64,000 nt of DNA, from NCBI RefSeq assembly GCF_032854445.1, contig NC_088296.1, positions 22,247,853 to 22,311,852 on the forward strand, read 5' to 3'. This document shows positions 57,870-60,800 of this stretch, one piece after another. The notes under the pieces were generated by a model that was not told where the DNA came from, searched no databases, and worked only from the letters and a program-made list of their open reading frames with translations. Origin of the DNA: Liolophura sinensis (taxonomy: Eukaryota > Mollusca > Polyplacophora > Chitonida > Chitonidae). The position numbers were made by a program, and so were the translations under genes. The first letter of the stretch is position 1; each line of letters starts with the position of its first letter.

Positions 57870-60800
57870 CTGCAACGGAACAAAAGTAGGACAATTGTTA
57901 GAAAACATCGTTTTTTGTTTTTTTTTTGGTATCATTCTCTTTCAATGTAGGTGAACTCCATACTTAAGATTTCTTCACTTACCCTGCCTTGTATAACATT
58001 TTTAGTTTCATGAGCAGATTACACCAGAGAACCAGAGATTCATGTACAACTTACCTTCACTTACCCTGCCTTTTACGACATTTTCAGTTTCATGAGCAGA
58101 GTACACCTGAAAACCAGAGATTCATGTACAACTTACCTTCACTTACCCTGCCTTTTATAACATTTTTAGTTTCATGAGCAGAGTACACCCGAGAACCAGA
58201 GATTCATGTACAACTTACCTTCACTTACCCTGCCTTTTATAACATTTTTTGTTTCATGAGCAGAGTACACCTGAGAACCAGAGATTCATGTACAACTTAC
58301 CTGTATAACCATAGATTCATGTACAACCTACCTGTATAAACAGAGATTCACATACAACTTCCCTGTATAAACAGAGATTCATGTACAACTTACCTGTATA
58401 AACAGAGATTCATGTACAACTTCCCTGTATAAAGAGAGATTCATGTACAACTTACCTGTATAACCAGAGATTCATGTACAACTTACCTGTATAACCAGAG
58501 ATTCATGTACAGCTTACCTGTATAAACAGAGATTCATGTACAACTTACCTGTATAAACAGAGATTCATGTACAACTTGCCTGTATAAACAGAGATTCATG
58601 TACAACTTACCTGTATAAACAGAGATTCATGTACAACTTACCTGTATAACCAGAGATTCATGTACAACTTACCTGTATAACCAGAGATTCATGTACAACT
58701 TACCTGTATAACCAGAGATTCATGTACAGCTTACCTGTATAACCAGAGATTCATGTACAACTTACCTGTATAACCAGAGATTCATGTACAACTTACCTGT
58801 ATAAATAGAGATTCATGTACAACTTACCTGTACTCTGCTCCCCAGCCTTTGACAAAACTCATTCTGATGGTACACATCCTGGTTAGCTGATAGACAGATT
58901 CAAAGCCCTGGTTCACAGACTGAGCCAAGAGAGCTGCAAACTCCTGGTTGTTGAAAATCTTCAAGTTACAGCCTGAAAATAAAGCCAACCACAAATATTC
59001 AAATCTTAACCGCCAAGGTCAATCCTGTATTTCCGGTGTAATTTTTCCACCTTTTTGCATGTTTGTAAGTTGTTTATTCAAACATATTCTGAGAGTATTA
59101 TCCTGGCTAGACTGATGAGATTACACTTTTTGTGAAGTCCTGAAAATGTTCAACTCAAACGATGTAGTTTAGTCTCGGAAAGCAAATTAAAAAGGAGCAT
59201 AAATTCCACTGAAATCTGCACTTTCATATATGAAAAGGTTGAGGAATTAAGGTGTATATAAAAGTAGACAATGGTCATTTGAGAATTTCACGAGTTTAAT
59301 AGTCATGTCTTCGATTCTTGTTTCATGCAATGGGAAAGACTGCATCATCTTTTTCACTTCTCTTTTCACTTAATTTTGTTCTGCAGTAAACGTGAATGAA
59401 ACCAATGAGAGTTCTGCTTTGTAATTTACCAGGTGGTATTTTGCACACTGTCGCTGGGTGCCAGCCATACCGCTGGTTGCAGTTGGGACTCTGTACAAAC
59501 ACAGCATTCTCGCTCAGACACTCTGCGAACACCTCACCGCCGATGTAATACAGACGGACACCTTTTCCTGAAGAACATGTAAATTCTTATTCAGCCACGT
59601 TTCAGAGGTTTTCTGATAATTGCTCAGGTATGAATTTACTCAAAAAGCATGACAAGGCGATTCTCACAAAATTATCTGTCTTGTATATCCCTGAGTTGTC
59701 TAATACCGCAGCCAGAAAAAACACGGTGCACAAGTTGGTTTTGAACATCTGGCTATTCCACAACTGTTATCTCTACTCGGCACATCGTCTCCACCTACAA
59801 GTGATATTTACAAAAAATTCTGACAAGTATACAAGACCAAAAAACTCAAAAGAGCACTTGTTTGTTTTGAACTTCTTACTCTGCACACCTTTATCAACTC
59901 TTCACTCACCTATATGTCGGCGAGTCGTCTCCACTTGCTGAGTACGATTAATATTTGAGAGAAGGCCGAGACAAAATCGCTCCGAGTTTGACGGGTCTGT
60001 AAAACCATCTACCGTAAGCGAAGGCTGGGAAGCATGAAAGGGCTCGCCCACTCGGGTGTTGAGTTCGTAGTACGCTATTGAGCACCAGAAAACTGGCTCC
60101 TTGTATGTTACAGGTTGAACATCTGAAAACAGAAACATTAACCATCAATACAGGTAAGATGTCTGCGAACTGTTTCCTTGTATGTTACAGGTTGAACATC
60201 TGAAAACAGAAACATTAACCATCAATACAGGTAAGATGTCTGCGAACTGGTTCCTTGTATGTTACAGGTTGAACATCTGAAAACAGCAACATTATCCATG
60301 AATACAGGTAAGATGTCTGCAAACTGGTTCCTTGTATGTTACAGGTTGAACATCTGAAAACAGAAACATTAACCATGAATACTGGTAAGATGTCTGCAAA
60401 AAAAAACAAAAACAAGAAAACAGAAATCAACATGGTTGACCTGGAAGAGAAAAAAAAGGGAAAATATTACCTGATGAAAGGCTTGTTTATTTATTTAATT
60501 ATTTGATTACTATTTTACCCTGTTCTCAAGAATATATCCCTTATACGACGATGGCGGCCAGCAATATGGTGAGAGGAAACCGGGCCAGAGCCCAGGGCGG
60601 GGGAGGAAACCGGGCAGAGCCCAGGCGGGGAGGAAACCGGGCAGAGCCCAGGGGAAACCTCAGAATCAAGCACAGGTTGCCGCCAGGCCTTTCAACTTAC
60701 AAATATAGAGCTTAACACTTTCAAACATTTACAAACAGGGTCACAGACATGGATATAGACCAGATGTGTGTACACAGAAATCTTTCTAAAATAAAACTTC

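Follow-up and report, generated by a model that had tools for sequence, protein, structure and literature searches.

In the chiton Liolophura sinensis, the 5' splice site (donor) of the penultimate coding exon of the Smad2/3 gene is followed by a row of tandem copies of itself, and a second exon of the same gene has a copied 3' splice site (acceptor). The DNA analysed was a stretch of 64,000 nucleotides (contig NC_088296.1, positions 22,247,853 to 22,311,852), hereafter called the window, and the minus strand of this window carries the 3' half of Smad2/3 in four exons. The donor array is probably a neutral minisatellite of the "mirage" type known from amphioxus, grown by slippage and without function, in which the authentic copy is the one used. 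The genome was first published under the name Liolophura japonica (PMC11068029), since corrected to L. sinensis (PMC12441733).

Donor array in the Smad2/3 gene

Read in the direction of the gene, the boundary at 58828|58827 between the penultimate exon and the last intron is GCAGAGTACAG|GTAAGTTGTACATG (TACAG|GTAAGT), and the repeat unit of the adjoining array consists of the last five exon bases (TACAG) and the next 26. Tandem Repeats Finder (TRF) reported 17.9 copies at 58279-58832 with 95% matches and a score of 975. When the array was split in register, the authentic donor formed unit 1 and a further 17 units ran from 58801 down to 58275, which confirmed the 17 tandem 31-bp copies described in an earlier note on this DNA. 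As that note had also counted, 13 of the 17 extra units keep CAGGTAAG(T/C), 11 of them as CAGGTAAGT and two as CAGGTAAGC. In the remaining units, GC replaces GT once and GG replaces it twice, and one unit reads GTAGGT; GT is kept in 14 of the 17 copies. The mean pairwise identity among the 18 units was 94%; hence, with this identity, the copy number and the TRF score, a chance origin of the array was ruled out. Copying of a dispersed element was not supported, as the exact 27-mer of the unit had 10 matches in the genome, every one inside the Smad2/3 array. The exons, the last intron and the arrays are as follows.

58828..58972, minus strand: penultimate coding exon of Smad2/3, 145 nt, part of MH2 (...GWGAEYR); from Pfam and splicing/translation
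58275..58832, minus strand: 31-bp array of 18 in-register units, the first of them the authentic donor and the other 17 its copies; from TRF and the register split
57973..58302, minus strand: 82-bp array, 4 copies (TRF, 4.0 copies)
57870..58827, minus strand: last intron of Smad2/3, 958 nt
57746..57869, minus strand: last coding exon of Smad2/3, ending in SSMS and the stop; from translation, with no Pfam match of its own
60090..60400, minus strand: 77-bp acceptor array, 4 copies; from TRF and translation
59910..60122, minus strand: first MH2 exon, whose acceptor is copied; from Pfam, its end set by hand from spliced positions
59430..59567, minus strand: middle MH2 exon (...KIPP); from Pfam, its start set by hand

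Of the four exon frames submitted to Pfam, three matched MH2, and the frame over the last exon had no match. Upstream of these exons, an MH1-like exon was read by eye in a 9.9-kb stretch beyond the window (L058). TRF found no arrays at the junctions of the middle MH2 exon.

The 82-bp array adds further GTAAGT sites, as the earlier note had stated. It looks like a second-order array, because its unit contains 24 bp of the 31-bp unit besides these additional words. Together, the arrays fill the last intron except for about 100 nt, and 21 GTAAG words, the authentic one counted, were found in its 958 nt. Furthermore, translation through the donor bore out the predicted consequence of decoy use: the frame reads ...KGWGAEYR* and stops at once (TAC AGG TAA).

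Acceptor array in the same gene

A further array, which the earlier note does not mention, has a unit of 77 bp; its four copies repeat the acceptor of the first MH2 exon (TTTTCAG|ATGTTCAACC) and the sequence around it. The first exonic bases lie at 60353, 60276 and 60199 in the decoys and at 60122 in the authentic copy, and AG is kept in all three decoys. Translation from each decoy, without a further splice, read about 20 residues and then a stop. Both kinds of splice site, donor and acceptor, are thus copied within Smad2/3.

Frequency of copied junctions

The occurrence of such arrays elsewhere in the genome was sampled in two protein families unrelated to the Smad2/3 case, myosin heads and kinesins. 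The myosin heads gave 81 matches, of which 71 exons, taken together with their flanks, were run through TRF and the resulting candidates inspected by eye; the kinesins gave 132 matches, of which the first 60 meeting fixed criteria were screened. A tandem-copied junction was observed in 8 of the 71 myosin exons, at the donor in six (L051, L073, L047, L044, L089 and L059) and at the acceptor in two (L053 and L062), and in 4 of the 60 kinesin exons (donors L101, L117 and L137; acceptor L094). Both families taken together, 12 of 131 exons had a copied junction (95% interval 4.8-15.5%), with nine donor and three acceptor cases (p=0.15). The true rate may be higher, because most flanks were only 200-250 bp long and some myosin matches were long open frames without nearby introns. 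One of the myosin cases (L053:9-705, G000:C2:5377809-5378505) contains a unit of 32 bp with the acceptor of the P-loop exon (FERNQSIIVSGESGAGKT), repeated about 22 times, and is the acceptor-side counterpart of the Smad2/3 donor array.

In addition, a search for groups of three CAGGTAAGT words with spacings of 10-40 bp covered the contigs C1 and C2, and C3 up to 23.3 Mb. This gave 14 arrays, among which L016 and L017 look related and L014 is doubtful as a junction array. Five of them, read by eye, start where a coding-looking open frame ends (the array in the window, L011, L012, L013 and L018). Pfam supported the frame in only two of the five, by an MH2 match in the window and by a match to glycosyl hydrolase family 31 in L012 (E 2.7e-14); L013 may encode a deoxyribose-phosphate aldolase.

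Position of the arrays relative to splice junctions

As a control for the pattern search, we used the reversed donor word, TGAATGGAC. The donor word CAGGTAAGT occurred 9807 times and the control word 4854 times (2.0x), and in the regions searched the triple-copy arrays numbered 14 for the donor word and 6 for the control word (p=1.0). That arrays form preferentially at donor words was therefore not supported. Among the first 100 sites listed, clusters of at least three copies were present, by our own count, in 5 of about 46 donor-word loci and in 4 of about 57 control-word loci. When 14 control arrays on C1-C10 were examined, L030 was itself a copied donor. Another control-word array, L033 (G000:C10:16221900-16225700), has about 28 units with TTTCTTTTCAG and may be a copied acceptor.

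The exon sample allowed a second comparison. Besides the 12 arrays that span a junction, there are 10 whose end lies outside a junction but no more than roughly 60 bp from it (L043, two at L057, L067, L066 as a borderline case, L076, L092, L099, L131 and L134). With a mean unit of 65 bp, the share expected to span a junction at random is 65/125, or about half, and the observed split did not differ significantly from it (p=0.83) in this small set of 22 arrays scored by eye. The numbers of arrays at junctions fit random placement of minisatellites.

Variation among the copies

The tests for selection on the decoy sites were small, and part of the scoring was done by eye. In the seven donor arrays with at least three copies, Smad2/3 included, the nine donor bases varied in 29 of 558 cells and the other bases in 92 of 1364 (p=0.22). 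The Smad2/3 array alone showed the opposite trend, with 6 of 162 donor-base cells varied and 6 of 396 in the rest (p=0.12). In the two acceptor arrays with at least three copies, the corresponding counts were 2 of 216 and 14 of 504 (p=0.17), the position in L053 being shifted by one base. Accordingly, neither significant preservation nor significant erosion of the decoy sites was seen in these seven donor and two acceptor arrays. A first pooled count had given a lower donor-base variation at p=0.012, and was discarded because the fuzzy search had dropped copies. The GT was kept in 63 of 68 donor copies across ten arrays, and the AG in 26 of 28 acceptor copies as counted from the printed sites. 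Within the family sample, the copies were equal to or weaker than the authentic donor in L051, L044, L089, L101 and L137.

The copies are not explained as coding sequence, since the unit length was a multiple of three in only 4 of 19 junction arrays (63, 66, 39 and 36 bp). The units of the donor arrays L012 (39 bp) and L030 (36 bp) look open in the frame of the exon, and their retained copies would therefore encode peptide repeats.

Comparison with amphioxus mirages and related systems

Tandem-duplicated exon-intron boundaries are known as "mirages" from amphioxus, where Adh3 and the globins BflGb6 (acceptor side) and BflGb9 (donor side) carry them; the Adh3 data and reverse transcription PCR of the globins are said there to suggest regular splicing, with the use of cryptic sites being possible, and the haplotypes of BflGb6 vary in copy number (PMC3087553). 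Further cases are troponin C and an imperfect one in PGBD5, for which undisturbed splicing was inferred by the authors (PMC3902484). The Smad2/3 arrays resemble these mirages in that the unit spans an exon-intron boundary, that donor and acceptor sides both occur, and that many, though not all, copies keep the AG or GT signal. The unit lengths of 31 and 77 bp also fall within the 10-160 bp of the cited amphioxus cases. The differences concern the host, a mollusc and not a cephalochordate, a taxon that we treat as descriptive and not as defining; the gene, which is Smad2/3 and has a row of 18 units at one of its junctions and an array at a second one; and the sampled frequency of about 1 exon in 11. 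For amphioxus, regular splicing and length or somatic instability have been reported, whereas the chiton arrays are known from the sequence of one assembly. By its organization, the Smad2/3 array appears to be a mirage in another phylum, and the exon sample gives a first estimate of the frequency of such arrays in one genome. No report of copied-junction arrays in molluscs was found in the open-access literature, of which a part was searched, and this is weak evidence of absence.

Junction-duplicating minisatellites would accordingly extend beyond amphioxus into molluscs, and the rate in the two sampled families suggests that they are common in some genomes. If so, such genomes would amount to a natural experiment, large in scale, in the choice that the spliceosome makes among near-identical neighbours. 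The arrays are, moreover, raw material from which new introns and alternative exons could arise. The gain of introns by tandem duplication likewise involves a duplication that crosses an intron-exon boundary; unlike in that process, no new intron was seen in Smad2/3, where the copies lie inside one intron.

Proposed origin and tolerance of the arrays

The explanation that we favour begins with a short tandem duplication that would have happened to cross an exon-intron boundary. The array would then have grown and been homogenised through replication slippage or unequal exchange, with one copy remaining attached to the exon, namely the upstream-most donor or the downstream-most acceptor. The spliceosome is expected to pass over the other copies because the authentic site, being attached to the exon, is nearest across it and would be favoured by exon definition; ignored in this way, the arrays would be tolerated without having a function. 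Rare mis-spliced transcripts may perhaps arise, which would stop at once and mostly be cleared by nonsense-mediated decay. Neutral slippage had been named as a possible origin in the earlier note, and the random-placement counts and the lack of significant selection on the decoys agree with it.

The expected choice of site can be compared with published minigenes. Where an exon-defined minigene contained two identical CAG/guaagu donors, splicing took place exclusively at the upstream one, and the boundary between intron and exon definition was placed at about 250 nt (PMC9225289). The Smad2/3 exon resembles these constructs in having equal-strength donors of this sequence behind one exon and flanking introns (457 and 958 nt) above that boundary; the difference is that an engineered pair in transfected cells is compared with a natural array of 18. 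Given the exon-proximal preference in the minigenes and the length of the flanking introns, the authentic Smad2/3 donor should win and the decoy donors should be silent. The reading by exon definition further predicts that arrays are tolerated in long introns and purged in short ones. In Smad2/3 itself, growth of the arrays may have shifted the last intron from intron definition to exon definition.

Several points weigh against this explanation. The minigenes are not chiton genes, and in the same study the stronger donor dominated 86% of competition events, while without a strength filter the downstream donor was preferred by the majority in every class (PMC9225289). The latter bears on the early history of the array: the last intron without its arrays is only about 100 nt long, so that a two-copy stage may early on have favoured the downstream donor. 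For competing 3' sites under exon definition, the upstream preference was merely reduced (PMC9225289); because of this, the 77-bp acceptor array would be less safely silent and a likelier place of mis-splicing. In L011, L012, L013 and L018, the copies, compared by eye, were closer to the consensus than the exon-attached donor, although these four came from a search that selected perfect copies. A reading in which all copies are silent must still account for such arrays. Finally, the random-placement test on which the neutral origin leans is itself small.

Alternative explanations

The decoys could draw U1 and splicing to themselves and so produce transcripts with an immediate stop, a longer array giving less full-length Smad2/3. 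In favour of this, 11 of the 17 decoys share the exact sequence of the authentic donor, CAGGTAAGT, the full complement of U1, and the frame stops directly behind the penultimate exon. With the inclusion of at least two extra units (at least 62 nt), the stop would stand more than 50 nt ahead of the junction, a position from which decay of the transcript is expected. However, myosin and kinesin exons, among others, have similar arrays, which suggests a general process, the cores of the decoys are not significantly preserved, only the upstream one of identical competing donors was used in exon-defined minigenes (PMC9225289), and the amphioxus counterparts are said to be spliced regularly (PMC3087553, PMC3902484). 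We therefore consider this explanation unlikely. The earlier note had suggested that the array competes for or reinforces U1 binding and could in this way tune the output of Smad; this proposal was unsupported, since arrays of this kind occur in numbers that fit random placement, their decoys show no significant selection and the minigenes used the exon-proximal site only. The interpretation in that note is thus partly supported, its description of the arrays having held.

A related proposal, quite unlikely in our judgement, is that the copy number of the array, varying between individuals or somatically, sets the share of decoy use and with it the output of full-length Smad2/3. In its wider form, if true, each of the many junction arrays in the genome would modulate its own host gene.

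Alternatively, junctions might be preferred targets of tandem duplication, for example via R-loops or U1-bound nascent RNA. The presence of two junction arrays within Smad2/3 and the excess of donor over acceptor cases in the exon sample would be in line with such targeting, but that excess was not significant, the rate of arrays per donor-word site agreed with that of the control word, and the split between spanning and near arrays fits random placement. A targeted mechanism seems to us just as improbable as an effect of copy number on Smad2/3 output.

It is also conceivable that a row of perfect U1 sites reinforces the authentic donor or guards against premature polyadenylation, as the number of GTAAG words in the last intron might suggest. 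This is highly doubtful: other arrays contain weak donor copies (CAGGTCACT in L044 and GAGGTAATG in L137), acceptor arrays duplicate the opposite end of the intron, and the decoy cores again lack significant preservation.

Recursive splicing, in which each unit would act as acceptor and donor (...TTATACAG|GTAAGT) so that the intron would be excised in steps and the decoys would disappear with it, is very unlikely: a fair pyrimidine stretch does precede CAG|GTAAGT in the unit and resembles the recursive-site consensus by sequence, but an AG about 24 nt upstream of each CAG leaves little room for a branch point, and the acceptor array has no donor directly behind its AG.

Other observations

Elsewhere in the window, at 28046-30267, a 58-bp unit is repeated 38 times inside an apparent SIN3 gene, which was recognized from PAH and Sin3a_C matches located between 24527 and 44419 on the plus strand.

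The contig C99 of the same assembly (G000:C99, 108,685 bases) has seven COX1 matches about 15.5 kb apart, that is, mitochondrial genomes arranged head to tail, which is probably an assembly artefact. A tRNA scan of the mitochondrial DNA under the bacterial code found none. The mitochondrial gene order was read from this contig, and we take it to represent the type ancestral to molluscs. Next to COX3, C99 has a long simple repeat rich in TA.
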